The position numbers and the translations under genes were made by a program. Below the pieces are notes generated by a model that was given only the letters and a program-made list of their open reading frames with translations, was not told the DNA's origin and did no database searches. This document shows positions 5,030 through 39,511 of a stretch of DNA of 46,293 nucleotides, piece by piece (within the stretch, counting starts at the first letter, position 1; each line of letters starts with the position of its first letter). The DNA lies in assembly GCA_900696595.1 (NCBI GenBank), contig CAADGT010000029.1, positions 1 to 46,293 on the forward strand, written 5' to 3'. This stretch comes from an uncultured Chloroflexota bacterium (GTDB lineage: Bacteria > Chloroflexota > Anaerolineae > Anaerolineales > Villigracilaceae).

Positions 5030-5629
5030 CTATTTGAAATCCACCCGTTCCGCGGTGATCAGGATCTTGTAGATGATGTTGGCGTCCGTCAGGCACAGAA
5101 TCTTGTCGCCCGATTTTGCGATCGAGCCGTCCGTGCCGCCGATCCATGCCCAGCCGTAATAACACCCCGCCAAGACCCTGGCGGGGAAGACATCGCCCGC
5201 GCCCAATGTGAATGAATATGCGTAACATTCGTTCTTGTCGTTTGGAAAGTTCATGCCAAAGGAAAGGTTGGCGCTGCTGTCTGCCTGGTTGTAAAACTCG
5301 ACGTTGACTTGCGCTCCCTTCGGCTCCGGTTCCGGGATAAGCACGCAATCAGCCGTCGGGGTCGCCATTACGCCGACAGTCGCGGGCGGGAGCGTGGGGA
5401 GCAGGACCAGGGGCGCGGGCGTATTTGTGGGTTGGGGCGTAAACGTAGGCGGAAGGGGCGTCGCGGTGGGAGCGGCGGCGGCGGTTTGGGTCATGGCAAG
5501 CCAGGCTTGCGCTACGGCGGTCGAGGCGATGTCTTCCGCGCTGATTTCGGGCGTGGCGTCCGCGCCTCCGCAGGCGGAGACGACAAGAGTCGCCAGGACG
5601 GTCATGGCAATCAGGAATTTCTGTTTCAT
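5030..5629 (-). CDS. Lipoprotein with Thr-Pro linker, unknown function
   Basis: The 199-aa protein has a signal peptide ending in the lipobox VSAC (lipidated C20), a helical segment, then a linker rich in PTATPLPPTFTPQPTNTP (about 54-72) and a small C-terminal globular domain. Such Thr-Pro linkers are frequent in Anaerolineae exported proteins. I do not recognise the C-terminal domain. GGAG lies 8 nt before the ATG. The gene runs into the sulfotransferase gene, so it may be a surface partner of the same glycan system, but this is only context. Confidence 0.72.
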   Translation of the reverse strand: MKQKFLIAMTVLATLVVSACGGADATPEISAEDIASTAVAQAWLAMTQTAAAAPTATPLPPTFTPQPTNTPAPLVLLPTLPPATVGVMATPTADCVLIPEPEPKGAQVNVEFYNQADSSANLSFGMNFPNDKNECYAYSFTLGAGDVFPARVLAGCYYGWAWIGGTDGSIAKSGDKILCLTDANIIYKILITAERVDFK

Positions 5630-6004
5630 TGGTTTCTCCAGCCTCCATTTTTACCACGAATCGCCTTTCAAACGTTTTGCGGCGGAGGGGCGTCGGCGGG
5701 CTGGCAAGGCTTGGGGAGCAGGATCCGCTTCGAGCGGGGAAAGAGGCGTTCAATCCGTTCGAGAATCTTGCGGCGCGGATAATCCAATTCTCAAAGTGAA
5801 TGAAGGCGGGCGTATCGTAGAGTTTCACGGTCAAAATTGTGACCCATTATCGGGAGGTTTATCAGCATTGCGCGGTTATTTTCGTCACTGTTGACTGCGA
5901 CATATTTAACTAATATGGAATTGAGGGGTAATTTATCGCCGTTGCGAATGGATGGCTTCGGTCATGCCGAGCAAAGACATTCGTCCTTTTGAAAGGAGGA
6001 TGGC
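5630..6004. other. Divergent intergenic region
   Basis: A 375-nt gap between two divergent genes. It must hold both promoters, but I find no strong -35/-10 pair. The only clear element is the GAAAGGAGG ribosome binding site at 5991-5999. No RNA gene or gene remnant is recognisable. Confidence 0.4.
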
Positions 6005-6256
6005 ATGAACGTCAAACCGATTCTGGACGCCGAGCCTGTCGAAGACCCGAACGCCATGCTGGAGAAGGCGCTCATGGAAGAGTTTCTGAAGGAAAAGGGG
6101 TACAGCCTCGAAGGCTTGAAGGGACTCTCCGCCGAACTCGCGGAGAAACTGATGAAGGAAGCCTCGCAATATGCCTCGCTCAAGTTGGAAGAAGTGGAGG
6201 CGCGGGCAAAGTTCGTGAAGGAACTGCAAGACAGCGCTTCGCCTCTGGAAAAGTAA
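6005..6256 (+). CDS. Small helical protein, unknown function
   Basis: The 83-aa product is preceded by a very strong ribosome binding site (GAAAGGAGG, 5 nt before the ATG). It is almost wholly predicted helix, with charged stretches (ALMEEFLKEKGYSLEGLKGL, LKLEEVEARAKFVKEL) and no Cys, signal peptide or membrane segment. It resembles no family I can name. It is followed after 14 nt by the next gene, so both are likely co-transcribed. The word GAGCCTGTCGAAG at 6032-6044 also occurs in the dispersed repeat found in polX, but here it may be coincidence. Confidence 0.65.
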   Translation: MNVKPILDAEPVEDPNAMLEKALMEEFLKEKGYSLEGLKGLSAELAEKLMKEASQYASLKLEEVEARAKFVKELQDSASPLEK

Positions 6257-6270
6257 AAAGGAGAATGAAA

Positions 6271-6597
6271 ATGGCTGCAACAAACTCAAACGCCGAAGGC
6301 GAATCGAACAAAGAAACCATTGCAAATATGGAAGTTGAGATCAGCGAGCTTCAGGGCGCGATCAAGAAGCTCGGGCAGATTGGGGTGGCAGGCTTTGTAG
6401 TCCTTTTAATAGCAGTATTCCTGTTTTTCTCTCATCTTGCAACGATGTTTGATAACGACGCTACCTCCTGCGTTACAGGAATCCTATTGGTGTTAATGAT
6501 GCCTGCGGCGTTCATGCTAAGAAAAAAGTGGGACGCCGCCAACAGTCAACTCAGTGAAAAGCAAAAGGCATTAAAAGAAATGTATAACCGCCAGTAG
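6271..6597 (+). CDS. Small coiled-coil membrane protein
   Basis: The 108-aa product has an N-terminal coiled coil (about 15-40), two hydrophobic segments (about 42-62 and 70-88) and a charged C-terminal helix. The ATG at 6271 is chosen because AAGGAG lies 7 nt upstream; an in-frame ATG two codons earlier would be too close to that site. It is probably an inner-membrane hairpin protein with both ends in the cytoplasm. No function can be assigned. It appears to form an operon with the preceding 83-aa gene. Confidence 0.65.
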   Translation: MAATNSNAEGESNKETIANMEVEISELQGAIKKLGQIGVAGFVVLLIAVFLFFSHLATMFDNDATSCVTGILLVLMMPAAFMLRKKWDAANSQLSEKQKALKEMYNRQ

Positions 6598-6646
6598 CCA
6601 AATTTCAAAAAGACTGTTTTCAAGATCATTACGGATAGGAATCTCC

Positions 6647-6803
6647 ATGACCCGACGCATATTCATTGACCCCGTCGCCCATCTCGAAGGTCATGCCAGG
6701 GTTGAAATTCTTCTCGACGGACAGGGCAATGCGGCCAACTCGTATTCTCAGATTCTCGAACTGCGCGGGTTCGAGCGCTTCTGATCGGGCGCCAGAGGAT
6801 GCC
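6647..6803 (+). pseudogene. 5' remnant of a [NiFe]-hydrogenase large-subunit gene
   Basis: An ATG with AGGA upstream opens 45 codons that read like the N-terminus of a group 3 [NiFe]-hydrogenase alpha subunit (HoxH/MvhA type): IFIDPVAHLEGHARVEILLD (5-24), then ELRGFERF (38-45). A TGA follows at 6782-6784. If one base is assumed lost there, the next codons read IGR and end in MP, echoing the family's FCxGRPVEEMP. The RxCGxC motif that binds the NiFe site, and everything after it, is missing. The lipoprotein ATG follows exactly where the homology ends. It is a dead fragment as an enzyme, but its translation start may still serve as a leader for the next gene. Confidence 0.75.
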
Positions 6804-7286
6804 ATGCGCACAAAGATGATTCTTCCACTCGCCTTTATTCTGGCGACATTGATATGCGCATGTGCTACAACTGCGCCGCCAACACCGACTCCAGTTCCGT
6901 CTCCAACTCCGACGCCGTCGGGTCCAAAGGCAGGAAAATGGGCGGGTGAGGATGTTTCTTTTATTGTGACCGCCGACAACAAGGTTGAAAATTTTGAACT
7001 ACTTATTCCAAATTCTTGCATCATCAAAGTTGCCCAGATTGACATTGACAGCGAAGGGAGATTTGTTGTAAGCCAGAATTATGATTTTACAAATGCCGCC
7101 GACCCCGTTAGTGTTTTCTTGAAAAATATCCTGGGTGAAAAGGGAACCCTCGATATTATCAGCGGGCAATTTACAAGCGATACCGGGGCCAGCGGAGATC
7201 ATCAGGATATTTTCTTTTGTGAAGAGCAGGCGATCATGGGCGATTTTCCGGAGTCGGAATGGACCGCCCAATGGATTGAACCGTGA
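6804..7286 (+). CDS. Lipoprotein with Thr-Pro linker, unknown function
   Basis: The 160-aa protein has a signal peptide with a lipobox ending at C20 (ICAC) and a PTPTPVPSPTPTPSGP linker, then a domain of about 115 residues rich in beta strands. Two Cys remain in the exported part and could form a disulfide. The start at 6804 is favoured because the signal peptide begins there and AGAGGA lies just upstream. An in-frame upstream ATG at 6666 reads, in another frame, through the hydrogenase remnant and is not credible. The domain has no family I can name. Confidence 0.7.
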   Translation: MRTKMILPLAFILATLICACATTAPPTPTPVPSPTPTPSGPKAGKWAGEDVSFIVTADNKVENFELLIPNSCIIKVAQIDIDSEGRFVVSQNYDFTNAADPVSVFLKNILGEKGTLDIISGQFTSDTGASGDHQDIFFCEEQAIMGDFPESEWTAQWIEP

Positions 7287-7320
7287 TGTGCCTTCGCTTT
7301 GATTTGGAAAGAAAAACATC

Positions 7321-7869
7321 ATGAACAACTACAAGATTATTGTTGTTACCTTGATCTTAACAGCCGTTTTGTCCCTGCCCGCTTGTGGCGGCGCGCCTGT
7401 AAACCAGCCGGATTCGGAAGATATCACCCCGCAGTCCCATGCGGAGACCAACCTCTCGCTGGTTGCAGTGTCCGATGAATGGGAATTGGAGATTACCGGA
7501 GCCATATGGGGAGGCGATTCTTCCATGATTCAGATCGGTGAGGGGCAAAAACAACTCTTTGTATTTACAAACCTCACCTATGTCGGGGTTGAAAATGATG
7601 TGCCGGTCCCTGCTTTTGGCGTGAACGACGGCAAAGGGTCTCCATTTGTTGTGTTTGCGAGTTTTGGTTATGGCTCTTCTGTCCCTGAAGGGGGGGAGAA
7701 TTGGATATCTTCATTTGTCACAGGGAATCCGGCCACCAGACACTTCACTCCTGGAGAGAGTTTTCGCCCGCTAATGTTCACTTTCGCCGGTCCCCAAGAT
7801 ACGCAAACTTTCATCTTTTTCTTTGACGACCTGACGCTTGATTTTACTTCTGTAGTAGAAAGCAAATGA
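7321..7869 (+). CDS. Lipoprotein, unknown function
   Basis: The 182-aa protein has a signal peptide and lipobox LPAC (C22). The exported domain looks like a beta sandwich: it contains the phrase LFVFTNLTYVG and a late segment FRPLMFTFAGP, a pattern similar to DUF4352-like bacterial lipoproteins, but this is only a resemblance. It lies 34 nt after the preceding lipoprotein gene. Its function is unknown. Confidence 0.7.
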   Translation: MNNYKIIVVTLILTAVLSLPACGGAPVNQPDSEDITPQSHAETNLSLVAVSDEWELEITGAIWGGDSSMIQIGEGQKQLFVFTNLTYVGVENDVPVPAFGVNDGKGSPFVVFASFGYGSSVPEGGENWISSFVTGNPATRHFTPGESFRPLMFTFAGPQDTQTFIFFFDDLTLDFTSVVESK

Positions 7870-7950
7870 CTCTCGTTTTTGGCATTGACCTTGCCCTGCC
7901 CCGAAACAATCAAGTTGTTGCAAACAGGACGCCAAACGATTGGAGGAAAA

Positions 7951-8298
7951 ATGAGCGCAAAACACTTAAAAATTGCCGCCTGTCTTTTGGCGGCGGCCCT
8001 GACTTTTGCAGGGTGTTTGGGACAAAAGGCAAAAATCATCGGCGTTGAGCGGGTGTATTCAATCGGTTATGAGGGAATGCCCGCCGCACATGCCCGTCCG
8101 GGATATGTCATTTTGTTGATTGAATTGCAGACCAGTGAAGAAATATCTCCCTTTGGCGACCTGGTTCTCAAAGATGGGGCTGGCAATTCCTATCCGGGCT
8201 CCGGGCTGTTTGACGGAAAGTATATTTTTGAAGCGCCTGAAAATGCGAATAATCTCACCTTGGTTGTGAAGGGCGATACAGAAATCCCCCTTCCCTGA
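7951..8298 (+). CDS. Small lipoprotein, unknown function
   Basis: The 115-aa protein has a signal peptide with lipobox FAGC (C22) and a short beta-rich domain. The ATG is preceded by GGAGGAAAA, a strong ribosome binding site, which decides against longer in-frame starts. Phrases such as RPGYVILLIELQ and LVLKDGAGNSYPGSGLF suggest a small immunoglobulin-like fold related to its upstream neighbour (inference). It is the third consecutive lipoprotein in the run. Confidence 0.7.
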   Translation: MSAKHLKIAACLLAAALTFAGCLGQKAKIIGVERVYSIGYEGMPAAHARPGYVILLIELQTSEEISPFGDLVLKDGAGNSYPGSGLFDGKYIFEAPENANNLTLVVKGDTEIPLP

Positions 8299-8314
8299 GC
8301 GAAAAGGAGCAAAC

Positions 8315-8575
8315 ATGAGCCGCAAATCAATCAATGCCATCATCGTCGGGCTGGTCATTTTGGCGGTCACATATTTCGCCTTCAATTCCATGTTCAACGC
8401 CGCCGCTCCGTCCGAGGCGGAGATCAACGCAGTGGTCGCAAGCGGAGGCTCGCCGCAGGGACTGATCGCGAAATCCGAGGAAGCGCAAAGCATCCGAACC
8501 ATGTTCTATTTCATCGCGGCGTTGGAAGTCATCGTAACCGGCATCCTTGCATATCAATGGCGCGGGCAAAACTGA
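8315..8575 (+). CDS. Small two-helix membrane protein
   Basis: The 86-aa product has a membrane helix at about 6-24, an extracytoplasmic loop of about 40 residues with many Ala, Glu and Ser, and a second helix at about 63-80 that ends in WRGQN. AAAAGGAG lies 7 nt before the ATG and the gene follows the lipoprotein by 16 nt, so it is the last gene of this run. No family is recognised. Confidence 0.65.
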   Translation: MSRKSINAIIVGLVILAVTYFAFNSMFNAAAPSEAEINAVVASGGSPQGLIAKSEEAQSIRTMFYFIAALEVIVTGILAYQWRGQN

Positions 8576-8743
8576 CAGCGCAACCTTGTTTGGATGAAAA
8601 AGCAGAAGGTTGTCGAAGCGCCGCAAAAGCAAATGGATATCATTCTCGCTGGGCGCATCAGGTTGATGGAGCGTCTCATCGGCTGCGATTGAGCCATTAT
8701 CATTGATCCGTTCATCGCAGAGATAAGGAGTCCGGTTCGATTG

Positions 8744-8775
8744 AAAAACGCCCCGGTTCGAGCCGGGGCGTTTTT
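8744..8775. terminator. Bidirectional intrinsic terminator before clpC
   Basis: A 13-bp perfect stem, AAAAACGCCCCGG with CCGGGGCGTTTTT, and a 6-nt loop (TTCGAG). It begins right after the clpC stop codon on the minus strand and also ends the plus-strand lipoprotein run, with A and T tracts on both sides. Confidence 0.92.
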
Positions 8776-8776
8776 G

Positions 8777-11254
8777 TTAGGCTTCCACTTCCTGTTCGGA
8801 TTTCTTCTTCGCCGCGGACGACGAACTGAAGACGATTTTGTTTTCCTGCTCGTCCACATCCACGGTCACTTCGGCGCCGTCTTTGAACTGGCCGCCGAGC
8901 AGTTCCACCGAGAGCGGGCTCTCGACATATTTCTGGATCGCCCTGCGCAGCGGACGCGCCCCGAAGGCCGGGTCGTAGCCCGCCTTCGCCAGCCAGGCGC
9001 GCGCCGGGTCGGTCAATAACACGGTGATGTTATGATCGTTGAGACGGTCCTGCACTTCCTTCATTTGCAGGATGACGATCTGCTCCATCTGTTCGAGCGA
9101 GAGCGGCGAGAACATGATGATCTCGTCTATGCGGTTGAGGAACTCGGGACGGAAGGCCGCCTTGAGCGCCTTGTCAATTTTGTCGTGCGCCTCGCGGTCG
9201 GAGGGTTCGGTTTTGCCGGGCAAAAATCCCAACGTGCCGCCCTTTCTCACATATTCGGTGCCGAGGTTTGAGGTCATGATCAGAACCGTGTTGCGGAAGT
9301 CCACCACGTTGCCCTGTCCGTCGGTCATGCGCCCGTCGTCGAGTATCTGCAACAAGGCGTTCCACACTTCGGGGTGCGCCTTCTCGATCTCGTCGAACAA
9401 CAGCACGCGATACGGCCTGCGGCGCACGGCTTCGGTCAGTTGACCGCCCTCCTCGTAGCCAACATATCCCGGAGGCGCGCCGAAGAGGCGGCTGACCGTA
9501 TGCTGTTCGCGGTACTCGGACATGTCAATGCGCACCATTGCGTCCTCGTCGTCGAACATGAACCACGCGAGCGCTTTGGCCAGTTCGGTCTTGCCCACGC
9601 CCGAAGGTCCGATAAAGATGAACGAGCCGATCGGGCGCGAAGGATCCTTCAAACCGGAGCGCGCGCGGCGGATCGCGTCCGAGATGGCGTGGATGGCCTC
9701 CTCCTGCCCGATGATGCGTTCGTGCAAACGCGCCTCCATGTGCAGGAGTTTCTCGGATTCGGTCTCGAGCATCTGAGTCACGGGGATGCCCGTCCACTGA
9801 TGCACGACCGCGGCGATGTCGTTCACATCCACCACTTCATCGAGGTGATGTTCGGCTTCCCAATGGTCGCGCTTCGCGTTGTATTCCTGCTCGAGGCGCA
9901 GGCGCTCGGCTTTCTTTTGCGCGGCGCGTTCGTAATCGCGATTCAAGCCGGCCTGTTCCTCCTCGGCTTGCAGTTTGTCAACCTCGGTCTTCATCGCCTT
10001 CAAATCCGGCGGCATGGAATACAGAGCCACGCGAAGTTTCGCGGCGGCTTCGTCCATCAGGTCAATGGCTTTATCGGGCAGGTGGCGGTCGGTCACGTAG
10101 CGATCCGCCAGATGGGCTGCGGCGGACAGGGCTTCATCCGAAAATCGCACCTTGTGATGCGCCTCGTAGCGGTCGCGCAAACCCTGAAGCATTTTGATCG
10201 TATCGTCCACGCTCGGCTCGTCCACATAGATCGGGGCGAAGCGGCGTTCGAGCGCGGCGTCCTTCTCGATGTGTTTGTGATATTCGTCCAGCGTCGTCGC
10301 GCCGATGCACTGCAATTCGCCTCTTGCAAGCGCAGGCTTGAGCATGTTGCTGGCGTCCATCGCGCCCTGCGCCGCCCCCGCGCCGACGACGGTATGCAGT
10401 TCGTCAATCATCAGGATGATGTCGCCCTTTGCGCGCTGGACTTCCTCCATCACCGCTTTGAGTCTTTCCTCGAACTCGCCTCTAAACCTGGACCCGGCGA
10501 TCATCGCGCCCAAGTCGAGCGCGACCACCTTTTTGCCTGAGAGAATCTCCGGCACGTCGTTCGTGGCGATCTTTTGCGCGAGTCCTTCCGCGATGGCGGT
10601 CTTGCCCACGCCCGCCTCGCCGATCAACACCGGGTTGTTCTTCGTGCGGCGCGAGAGAATCTGAATCAGGCGCATGATCTCGTTGTCGCGCCCGATGACC
10701 GGGTCAAGTTTGCCTTCGCGCGCCAGTTGGGTCAAATCGCGCGAATATTTATCGAGCGCGCGATATTTCGTCTCTGCCTGCGGGTCGGTCACGCGCTGTC
10801 CGCCGCGCAAATCCTGGATCGAATCGTAAACGCGATCGCGGCTCAACCCGGCCGATTCCAAGATGCGCGCCGCGGGCGTGTTGCGCTCGGTCAGAATCGC
10901 CAGAAAGATATGCTCGGTCGAAATGTATTCGTCCTTCAGACGGTTGGCTTCCTCGTTGGCAAGGTCAATAATGCGCTTGACGCGCGGCGTGATGAAGATC
11001 TGCCCCGCCCCGCCGCCGCCGAAGATATTCGCCTTCGGACTGGCGCGCAGGGTGGCGTCGAGCCGTTCGGTCAACGCCTGGGCGCTGACGCTCAATTTTT
11101 CAAGGATTTGGGGAATCACTCCGCCGGGCTGTTCGATCAACGCCAGCAGGATGTGTTCAGTGTCAATCTGGTTGTGGCCATAACGCTGGATGATCTCCGC
11201 GGCTCTTTGCGCGGCCTCCTGCGCTCTTTCTGTAAATCGGTCGAATCGCATCAT
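8777..11254 (-). CDS. clpC: ATP-dependent Clp protease ATPase subunit ClpC
   Basis: The 825-aa protein unfolds substrates and feeds them to ClpP. It has the double Clp_N repeat (about 1-140), a first AAA+ domain with Walker A GEAGVGKT (212-219) and Walker B LMIDELH (281-287), a UVR-like coiled middle domain (about 423-458) and a second AAA+ domain with GPSGVGKT (549-556). The short middle domain marks it as ClpC rather than ClpB. An in-frame GTG would add 22 residues, but [12 protein letters not shown] is the canonical start, with AAAGGA about 10 nt upstream. A TATAAT (11379-11384) gives a 5' leader of about 120 nt containing a 34-codon ORF. It ends in a strong terminator. Confidence 0.96.
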
Positions 11255-30086: not shown

Positions 30087-32255
<2,169 letters not shown>

Positions 32256-32435
32256 AGATTCCGCATCCTCCCCTGGAGTCAAAATATATTCCGATGCTGT
32301 CGTTTCGACGAACAAAACAAGGAGAAGCTCTGCGCTCGGCGAACGATTGAATTTGTCCTTCGCCGACCCAAGCCGCTGGCTCCCGGCGGCGAGTATGCCG
32401 TCGGGAGCATGGACAATTGGAAGCTCTCTTGCCGC
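32256..32435. other. Convergent gap with imperfect hairpins
   Basis: A 180-nt gap between ligA and the convergent lipoprotein gene. It has an 8-bp stem (32336-32343 with 32359-32366) and a 12-bp stem with one mismatch (32379-32390 with 32397-32408). Neither has a T-run, so a terminator is only possible. Confidence 0.4.
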
Positions 32436-33527
32436 CTACGGATTCGGACCTGGGGCGCCTCCCCCAGGAAATCCACCGCCTCCTCCTCCGGGAAACCCGC
32501 CGCCCGCCCCCCCGGCAGGACGGTTTCCAAGCGACGCCTCGAATCCGTTCAGGTTTTCGCGCCCGCGCGAGATTTCACCGCGCGCGAATTGCTGATTGAT
32601 CTCGTCGAACTTGCCGGAGAACTGCGTCAGATCGGGACCGATCGCGTCGGCGCCGCCAAACTGTTGGAAGCCGGCTTGCGCGTTCTTTCCCAGTTGCGCA
32701 AGGTTGAGCAGTTCGTCGCGGCTGAGTTTATTATCTCCGAAGGCGTTCTTGGCAAAGTCAACAAAGGCAAACGCCGATTGCAATGCGGAAAGTTTATCGG
32801 CGGGAATATTGTTCGGCTGAATCTGCCCGATCTGATTCAAACGTCCCTGTTGGTCCGCCTGCAATACGGATATCATATCCTGCGCGTTCGATTTCAATTC
32901 CTGCGCGTTCGTCTGGGCGGACTGGGCGGCAGTTTCGAGCTGGGATATCGTTTCTTCGGCGAGGGCGAGTCCCTGGTCGAGCGTGGCGCTGATCTGCTGA
33001 AGCGACTGGTCAATGGAACTGAGCGTCTCGTTCATCTGGTTTAGTTCGGCTTCGATGGCGTTCAACTCGGCGATCATTTCATAGGCGAGGTCGGAGTACA
33101 GGGCGTAATACTCCGCCAGCAGGTCTTCGGCATATTCGACGTAGTAGTCGGCATAGTAATAGTAACTGTAGACGTATTCGACCTCTTCGTAGGTGACCGC
33201 GTCGTCCTCAGTGGCGGTATAGACGCTGGCCGTCGTCTGTTCCGAGGCGGCGACCGCTTCGACCACCGCCTGTTCGATCAATGCGGCGAGTTCCTCCTCG
33301 GTCAGTGTGACATATTCGATGGTCGGTCCGGGCGTGGGTGTGGCGGGCAGGGCAGTCAACACGGCCGCATTCACAGTTGCCTGCGCCAACGCCTGAGATT
33401 GCTGAGTGCCGGCAATGCCCGTGCTGATCGCGTCCTCCTGCGAGACGGGCGCGGCGCCCATCGAACAGGCAGCGAGCAGGGCGGCTATGATGAAAGAAAA
33501 AGTTGCGATTCTGATTGCGGGTTTCAT
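32436..33527 (-). CDS. Tyr-rich coiled-coil lipoprotein
   Basis: The 363-aa protein has a signal peptide with lipobox LAAC (C21). Residues 113-149 hold 14 Tyr with many Glu and Ala. A long coiled coil follows (about 150-235), then a helical domain and a C-terminal Gly/Pro tail (PGGGGGGFPGGG). It is exported, rod-like and unlike any family I know. The Tyr cluster might act in adhesion, metal binding or cross-linking. The start is chosen because GGAG lies 7 nt upstream and the signal peptide begins there. It stands alone behind a strong terminator. Confidence 0.78.
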   Translation of the reverse strand: MKPAIRIATFSFIIAALLAACSMGAAPVSQEDAISTGIAGTQQSQALAQATVNAAVLTALPATPTPGPTIEYVTLTEEELAALIEQAVVEAVAASEQTTASVYTATEDDAVTYEEVEYVYSYYYYADYYVEYAEDLLAEYYALYSDLAYEMIAELNAIEAELNQMNETLSSIDQSLQQISATLDQGLALAEETISQLETAAQSAQTNAQELKSNAQDMISVLQADQQGRLNQIGQIQPNNIPADKLSALQSAFAFVDFAKNAFGDNKLSRDELLNLAQLGKNAQAGFQQFGGADAIGPDLTQFSGKFDEINQQFARGEISRGRENLNGFEASLGNRPAGGAGGGFPGGGGGGFPGGGAPGPNP

Positions 33528-33651
33528 TTGTTTCTCCATTTTATGCGTTTCGTTCATCATACAACGGGAGGACAAAAATCGCCTTTACATTTTTGTGCAG
33601 ACGGTTGGTTATTTCAGATATATGTTGTCTTATTTAAGGGGAGCGACGGCA

Positions 33652-33683
33652 AAAAAAGAGACCGGGCGCCCGGTCTCTTTTTT
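33652..33683. terminator. Palindromic bidirectional terminator
   Basis: A 32-bp perfect palindrome centred on GGGCGCCC with six A on one side and six T on the other. It ends the operon of the sensor kinase and Thr-Pro protein before the lipoprotein gene begins. Confidence 0.92.
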
Positions 33684-33751
33684 CTTCATGGGATCGGCTC
33701 TTCAACCGTCTGGCTGGCGTCCACCTGGGCGCGCGCGTTTCGGGTTTTGGA

Positions 33752-35032
33752 TCAGGGAGTGGGAGGCGGTTCTTCTGTCGTTGAGGCTTCCTCCGTTTGG
33801 GCGGTTTCCTCCGGGGTTGGCTCCTCGGGCTGAACGGAATCTTCAGGCGTCGGCCCTGCGTCGGCCTGATTTATAACCGGCGCAGGCGGCGCAGGAATCG
33901 GAACTTCGACAGTTTGAACTGCATCCACCTGAACAGCGTCCCCGCCGCCGACTGGATTGATGATAACAACGTATCCATAAACCCCGGGAGGCGGGTTGCC
34001 GGAGTTGTTATCGTCCACGTCAATCAGGATGCCCGTTTGGGGAGCGGGTCCCGCGCCGTCTGCGTCATACAATTGACTTGGGTTGACCGCTTCATTATCT
34101 GTTTCTCCGCCCGCCGCCAGGTCTGCGACGTTCGAGTTGTTGTCAGGGGCGCCGTTTCCCCAGTTAAACACTTCATAATATGTCGCGCCGTCGGCGTCGT
34201 TGGAAATGCCCACAACGAACCAGTCAAGATAGATTACATTAAAGTTCAGGAATTCATATATCGCCAGGTCATAGTTGCCGTCTGGGGTGGCTTCCACTGT
34301 GACGTTCAGCCCCAGGACAACATAGTTTCCGCTGTTTATTTCATAGGTATTGCTTAAATCAAAGCGATCCGTGTTATCCGGCGGAGCCCCCACATTAATT
34401 TGCGTGGGCGCGGGCGTAATTTGCGTAAGCGACGGGTCTATTGTGGACACAACCCCGGTCGGTGTATCTGTGGGGGTCGGTGTATCTGTGGGGGTCGGTG
34501 TATCTGTGGGGGTCGGTGTATCTGTGGGGGTTATTGTCGGCGTATCGGTGGGAGGCGGCGGGGTTGAACTTCCGCCGCCGTCATCGGGAGGCTCTGTTTC
34601 ATCCCCGCCTTGTGTGTTTGTTGGCGTCGCCGTTCCCGGATCGGCGCTGGGCGTAGGCGAAGGCGTGTCGGTGGGCGGGACCTGCGTCGGCGAAGGTTCG
34701 GTCCCGGTCGGCGTGGACTCCGTCGGCGCGGGCGAAGCGGTTGGCGAAAAGGGCAGGAAGGGCGGAAAGTAAACCTCCGCCCCGGGGGTCAGGTAATACT
34801 CCATCCACGCCATCGGGGTGAGAATCTGCGGCAGGATCGGTTCGAGCAGGGCGAAGGGTCTTGCCTCTTCCGGGTCCGGCTCGAGATTCGAGTTCATATC
34901 TCCGTTGACGCTCCAAAACGACGCCAGCCGCACGGCAAATTGACCCACGATGAGGATGAGCAGAATGCCGATGGGAATGATAAAGATGAGGAGCGTCCAA
35001 TCGCGGCGCTCGCGTTTCGGGTTTTGGATCAT
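33752..35032 (-). CDS. Membrane-anchored Thr-Pro repeat protein
   Basis: The 426-aa protein has one N-terminal membrane helix (about 13-33) after a short basic cytoplasmic start, then a long Pro/Thr linker with TPTDTP repeats, a beta-sandwich domain (about 225-365) and an acidic Pro/Glu/Thr tail. The linker is coded by an 18-nt unit repeated almost perfectly (34463-34530). A beta domain with LNVTVEATPDGNYDLAIYEF (246-265) suggests a CARDB-like fold (weak). Its ATG overlaps the TGA of the sensor kinase gene, so translation is coupled. Confidence 0.78.
   Translation of the reverse strand: MIQNPKRERRDWTLLIFIIPIGILLILIVGQFAVRLASFWSVNGDMNSNLEPDPEEARPFALLEPILPQILTPMAWMEYYLTPGAEVYFPPFLPFSPTASPAPTESTPTGTEPSPTQVPPTDTPSPTPSADPGTATPTNTQGGDETEPPDDGGGSSTPPPPTDTPTITPTDTPTPTDTPTPTDTPTPTDTPTGVVSTIDPSLTQITPAPTQINVGAPPDNTDRFDLSNTYEINSGNYVVLGLNVTVEATPDGNYDLAIYEFLNFNVIYLDWFVVGISNDADGATYYEVFNWGNGAPDNNSNVADLAAGGETDNEAVNPSQLYDADGAGPAPQTGILIDVDDNNSGNPPPGVYGYVVIINPVGGGDAVQVDAVQTVEVPIPAPPAPVINQADAGPTPEDSVQPEEPTPEETAQTEEASTTEEPPPTP
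34463..34530. repeat. 18-nt tandem repeat in the Thr-Pro linker
   Basis: Three identical 18-nt units (34463-34516) and a partial fourth code for TPTDTP steps. The exact identity of codons points to recent slippage or unequal exchange. Confidence 0.9.
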
Positions 35033-39236: not shown

Positions 39237-39511
39237 GGGCGTTTCTCGTGTTGGCGAGCGGAACGAGGGACGGGAATGGAAAAGTAAACGATGAAAGCAG
39301 AAAAAAAGCGTCGCCGACATTATACCCGGGCGGGAAAAGGGGCTGTCCGTCTGCGCCAGGCGGGAGCGGCGTTTATGAGGAGAACCCCTCGCTAAGGACG
39401 GCGCAGGGAGCAATCTGCCTGACATGTTTTGCGCGCACACCGCCTCCGAATGCCCGACAAACGACGACAGGCGCGCGGTATAATGCGGAAATTTTTTACA
39501 ATGGATATTCC

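Follow-up and report, generated by a model that had tools for sequence, protein, structure and literature searches.

Remnants of a probable Mvh-Hdr hydrogenase operon, and an intact small gene among them, in an uncultured Anaerolineales bacterium

In the genome of an uncultured Chloroflexota bacterium (Villigracilaceae), a short open reading frame that resembles the beginning of a [NiFe]-hydrogenase gene is followed directly by a gene for a predicted lipoprotein. Is this frame the scar of a deletion, a duplicated 5′ end that now supplies expression signals, or a short gene in its own right? We addressed the question in the 46,293-nucleotide stretch of DNA that carries it (the window; contig CAADGT010000029.1), using the rest of its own genome and 60 relatives for comparison. 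The segment from 5818 to 6803 is, with high probability, what erosion has left of an Mvh-Hdr operon ([NiFe] group 3c type) formerly present in the lineage. Its features and those that follow it are these:

5818 to 5942, plus strand: what is left of the hdrC leader and promoter region, from blastn to relatives
5943 to 5992, plus strand: hdrC 5′ stub, with a putative ATG at 5948, 14 codons and a TGA at 5990–5992 (frame by eye)
6005 to 6256, plus strand: intact 83-aa gene, 66–77% identical in amino acids to its counterparts in 15 of 19 relative loci
6260 to 6626, plus strand: insert unseen in the relatives' operons, carrying ORF 6271–6597
6627 to 6803, plus strand: mvhA 5′ remnant, comprising the upstream region and coding sequence to about codon 55 of the intact genes
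6804 to 7286, plus strand: predicted lipoprotein of 160 aa (by eye), directly after the mvhA remnant
7321 to 7869, plus strand: predicted lipoprotein (by eye), collinear
7951 to 8298, plus strand: predicted lipoprotein, collinear (start and signal by eye)
8315 to 8575, plus strand: small membrane ORF, collinear, followed by a convergent gene that we take to be clpB-like

As judged from homology, ORF 6647–6784, whose 45-aa product is MTRRIFIDPVAHLEGHARVEILLDGQGNAANSYSQILELRGFERF, is the first 45 codons of mvhA, the gene for a [NiFe]-hydrogenase large subunit. Against solved structures (PDB), the product matched residues 20–63 of 5xf9_D, the N-terminus of a hydrogenase large subunit (E 5.2e-7), with MvhA-type chains next, and the NCBIfam model VhuA aligned its positions 3–44 to residues 4–45 (E 5.1e-7); Pfam gave no match at E ≤ 1. 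Among 61 genomes, its own included, 38 match the stub at E ≤ 0.001. Strong matches (E ≤ 1e-13, 62–73% identity) occur in 19 of 36 same-genus relatives, and the open frames that hold them are 488–592 aa long in 18 of the 19 (142 aa in G016). The structure, the family model and these 19 matches bear out the initial annotation, which had recognised the N-terminus of a hydrogenase large subunit in the 45 codons. We judged the hydrogenase type to be group 3c from the content of the operon in relatives; this is the name that we take to apply to the Mvh-Hdr complex, with MvhA/VhuA as the large subunit of an F420-non-reducing [NiFe] hydrogenase.

The remnant extends beyond the open frame. Most relatives' mvhA genes align to the 45 codons without internal gaps, and the frame is then broken at 6782 by a 1-nt gap at codon 46, with a 6-nt gap after it. 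The initial annotation had described a frame break and a homology that stops exactly where the lipoprotein gene starts; the break is real, but homology does not end at it and runs past the TGA to 6803, just before the lipoprotein ATG at 6804. None of 500 random window segments aligned to mvhA as well as this extension. The next stretch, 6804–6825, aligned no better than chance (189 of 500 random segments were as good), and 6804–6818 was borderline, with 45 of 500 as good when judged by best score and 23 of 500 by mean score; the homology could therefore reach a few bases beyond 6803. The stub aligns over the length of the N-terminal IDPxxRxEGH region, but the R of RLEGH is changed (R12H). Clear homology stops before RICGVCP, and both this and the C-terminal DPCFGC, which we take to be the cysteine motifs of the large subunit, are missing from the stub; the mvhA of G028 carries both.

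The ancestral setting was reconstructed by mapping 19 same-genus loci with the proteins of G028; genes were named by homology and partly from what we presume to hold for Mvh-Hdr complexes in general. Gene order in these loci is hdrC-hdrB-hdrA-mvhD-mvhG-(usually the 83-aa gene)-mvhA-protease, the protease being unseen in L050, where the contig ends. Relatives' hdrA is mostly 76–96% identical to the query, and the hdrC and hdrB of five loci (L037, L039, L043, L048 and L049) are only 37–49% identical to the G028 versions, which indicates variation at the hdrC-hdrB end. The 83-aa gene lies between mvhG and mvhA in 14 of the 19 loci, takes another position in L040 and was undetected in four operons (L033, L034, L041 and L049). 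In L039 (G016), mvhA matched in overlapping pieces with a first open frame of 118 aa, which may reflect sequencing errors or another decaying copy. The synteny comparison envisaged at the outset thus shows an mvhA operon in all 19 loci.

Set against this order, the window holds more of the operon than the start of mvhA. The initial annotation's view that no other hydrogenase sequence lies nearby did not survive the comparison: a leader with an hdrC 5′ remnant lies at 5818–5973 and the operon's companion gene at 6005–6256. By blastn, 5847–5973 is 76–78% identical to the leaders of L035 and L110, and 5818–5882 is 85% identical to that of L044, with further matches in L050, L032, L038 and L054; the hdrC start of L107 matches 5943–5973 at 93.5% over 31 nt. 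Homology to hdrC ends at about 5973, and from there the sequence passes into the upstream flank of the 83-aa gene, ahead of which stands a Shine-Dalgarno-like AAAGGAGG at 5992–5999. Matching blocks (5818–5973; about 5980–6260, which takes in the ribosome-binding site of the 83-aa gene; and 6626–6796) follow the ancestral order of the intact operons; what is missing between 5973 and the 83-aa gene is the rest of hdrC, hdrB, hdrA, mvhD and mvhG. By eye, a CRP/FNR-family-like dyad, TTGTGA-N-TCAC, can be seen upstream of hdrC in 6 of 13 other leaders (L105, L108, L110, L115, L116 and L130); its counterpart in the window, at about 5890–5915, looks disrupted.

We propose that at least one deletion removed hdrC from about codon 10 through mvhG, and that mvhA was broken a second time, after about codon 55, where unrelated sequence beginning with the lipoprotein gene came in. 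The mvhA stub would afterwards have drifted without constraint, and the 83-aa gene would owe its retention to a role that does not depend on the hydrogenase.

Sequence not seen in the relatives' operons now stands upstream of the stub. Homology to these operons ends at 6259–6260 and returns at 6626–6628, and the intervening insert encodes a predicted membrane protein of 108 aa (ORF 6271–6597) with a sub-cut-off Pfam match to Phage_holin_3_6 (E 8.2e-6) and no match at E ≤ 0.001 in 60 relatives. A search of 6230–6700 for a transposon origin of the insert revealed no direct repeats and five short inverted pairs. For the lipoprotein at 6804 the relatives gave weak matches only, the best of them 40% identical (E 1.8e-9), none of the three ORFs at 7321–7869, 7951–8298 and 8315–8575 matched at E ≤ 1e-5 in the 60 relatives, and against PHROGs the neighbours gave weak matches only (best 0.0098).

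One could suppose that the remnant has been put to new use, the hydrogenase leader and the translated stub driving a seven-ORF unit (the 83-aa gene, the 108-aa ORF, the stub, three lipoproteins and the membrane ORF). All ORFs from 6005 to 8575 lie on one strand with gaps of 14–81 nt, the stub keeps its start codon, and AGAGG, which aligns to the mvhA codons just before EMP, stands 5 nt ahead of the lipoprotein ATG. A scan of 5600–8800 found no plus-strand terminator-like site that would divide such a unit and no plus-strand promoter-like site; neither count exceeded that of shuffled sequence, so that the scan carries no weight. With the CRP-like dyad apparently broken in the window and the residues of the stub drifted, we regard such a unit as a doubtful proposition, although one to be kept in mind.

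The drift of the stub is evident from residues that are otherwise invariant. It is changed at 10 of 37 such residues, and each of 17 relatives' mvhA genes at none or one (at most 1 of 38). The 83-aa gene of the window differs at 3 of 39, within the range of 0–5 seen in the other 15 copies (5 of 44 in L047). In a small and phylogeny-blind comparison, the stub and the 83-aa gene differ in this respect (10/37 vs 3/39, Fisher p 0.034); a second, likewise small and phylogeny-blind, used only the relatives common to both sets (10/39 vs 3/40, Fisher p 0.037). The mvhA set was formed without L038 and L040, which have shifted starts, and includes G016/L039, frame-broken further on; the 83-aa set was formed without L038, and L033, L034, L041 and L049 have no copy. 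Median pairwise pN/pS is 0.260 for the stub against relatives and 0.062 among relatives; for the 83-aa gene the values are 0.265 and 0.179. The pN/pS of the 83-aa gene here is thus no lower than that of the stub, and the difference appears only against each gene's own baseline. Taken together, pN/pS and the invariant-residue changes indicate, in a small sample, a clear relaxation of the stub compared with its own gene. The 83-aa gene, too, is evolving a little faster in this genome than in the others; what speaks for a function is that its frame is intact and its core conserved. The stub combines what is expected of a pseudogene: truncation within a recognisable gene order, a frame-disrupting change and relaxed constraint.

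These data also bear on whether the 45-aa ORF could be a genuine short gene that has a function of its own. It is an open frame with a start codon, gap-free over its 45 codons against most relatives' genes, but its strong same-genus matches lie, with one exception in 19, in frames of 488–592 aa, substitutions fall on conserved residues including R12H, and homology continues beyond its stop. Relatives therefore do not present it as a short gene, as had been allowed for at the outset, and we consider this reading very improbable.

We also searched the rest of the bacterium's own genome, a draft of 272 contigs that is 94% complete, so that a gene not found there might still exist. When mvhD, mvhG, mvhA, the protease and the first 250 aa of hdrB were joined into one query, it matched the stub alone at E ≤ 1, and the 45-aa query found only itself. 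HypD, present in 42 of the 61 genomes, was not found in this one. The hdrA query gave partial matches of 32–33% on C42 and a 75-residue match of 47% on C248, and the best hdrC match was a partial one of 31% on C42; because these identities are far below the 76–96% of most relatives' hdrA, we read the matches as other Hdr-like genes. The hdrC-like (31%) and hdrA-like (32–33%) matches on C42 lie close together, at 30874–33991 (L133, L135), as though another Hdr-like cluster had been kept. The only PF00374 match, on C98, was considered as a second hydrogenase and rejected, being below the cut-off and in a frame that by eye is complex I subunit D-like. The kam gene (91%), which lies downstream of the operon in relatives, was found on contig C200 with the two genes that separate protease and kam in some of them (L044 and L047, for example), and the best matches to oleC and oleD were only 24–38%; the remnant is therefore no longer beside its ancestral flanks. 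A stretch of about 78 bp, 85% identical between window 39366–39440 and L101 14291–14367 (C200), may be a dispersed repeat.

Apart from the stub, the 94%-complete genome yielded no mvhA, mvhG, mvhD, protease, hdrB or HypD and only distant hdrA and hdrC, which favours a deletion scar over a duplicated 5′ end. A duplication, by which the start of mvhA was copied before the lipoprotein gene for its expression signals while the real gene stayed elsewhere, would suit a remnant that lies away from its ancestral flanks, but it is highly unlikely, given that the search of the genome turned up neither an intact mvhA nor mvhG, mvhD, protease, hdrB or HypD and that the segment holds the leader, the hdrC start and the 83-aa gene in operon order, well beyond an mvhA start alone. 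Of the two origins that the initial annotation had offered, the deletion that joined a hydrogenase operon to the lipoprotein gene is upheld by synteny, by the decay of the stub and by the failure to find other mvh genes or HypD in the genome; the duplicated 5′ end finds no support, no intact copy having been found.

The most plausible reading of the intact 83-aa gene within the segment is that of an independent gene able to outlive the hydrogenase. A profile scan of the genome contigs with the 83-aa alignment identified 26 loci, many on contigs that, to judge by their length, also occur in the earlier set, all from Chloroflexi, Anaerolineales, Anaerolinea or Villigracilaceae. In 20 of these mvhA directly follows the gene, and L105 ends after it; five (L106, L109, L114, L127 and L129) have no mvhA beside it. 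In L106 about 2 kb separates the gene from an mvh operon upstream of it, in L129 the gene sits between oleD and kam, the ancestral flanks, and in L114 and L127 promoter-like and terminator-like sequences surround it (by eye). These five loci, together with the four operons that lack the gene, indicate that gene and operon are separable in both directions. Among the 17 same-genus genomes without a strong stub match, the 83-aa gene was found only in G006 and G013, with a divergent match in G009; it has therefore often been lost too. G013 (L054/L109) is a parallel wreck, comprising oleC, leader, 83-aa gene, part of mvhA and protease. It is the 3′ end of mvhA that remains there, not the 5′ end. 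In a kam tree of 10 rows, the window's genome groups with L129 at a support of 91/90, which falls below the tool's star; the losses in these two may be one event.

The 83-aa protein itself could be tied to no established family. Pfam gave none for the window's copy, and across the 26 members only scattered matches, the best to AAA_lid_At3g28540 (5.1e-4, two members) and LisH_2 (0.0043, one member), none of which was taken as an identification; nor was the single match of a profile search of solved structures, to a designed protein (E 0.12). Structure prediction gave a helical model with a mean pLDDT of 81.8 and a pTM of 0.59, and a fold search with it returned 13 matches at E ≤ 10 and none at E ≤ 0.001. 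A QYASLK core is conserved in the family. We speculate, tentatively and from sequence comparison, that the protein is a stand-alone factor of this Anaerolineales group, rescued more than once from a collapsing operon, and that here the leader, retained for its sake, might since have been re-used to express new membrane and lipoprotein genes specific to the lineage, the lipoprotein taking its ribosome-binding site from the mvhA stub.

The deletion scar is thus real and well supported; it is ordinary as a kind and more interesting through the small gene that is able to outlive the operon. Among the titles that a literature search listed, none dealt with the loss of an mvh-hdr operon. The bacterium would have lost a hydrogen-metabolising enzyme still encoded by close relatives, and the scar marks its lineage as secondarily, not ancestrally, without this hydrogenase. 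The stepwise dismantling of the operon can be read in order along the DNA. A small unnamed protein outlasts the loss in several genomes; hydrogen metabolism, which its place in the operon would suggest, would be the wrong assignment, and it is a testable candidate for another function.

The stub resembles MvhA/VhuA in that its 45-residue product aligns over its whole length with the N-terminus, and relatives own an hdrCBA-mvhDG-mvhA operon. It differs in that about 11% of the gene remains (about codon 55 of 488), frameshifted and without any cysteine motif, and, unlike a functional Mvh system, this one has no mvhG, mvhD, hdrB or HypD that could be found in its own genome. Bacterial gene remnants and deletion scars are in general marked by truncation, frameshift, accelerated residue change and loss of partner genes. 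The stub shares all four. In contrast to such scars in general, the segment has kept an intact small gene of the operon and the operon's leader, and comparable wrecks of the mvh operon are found in related genomes, in G013 and at L129.
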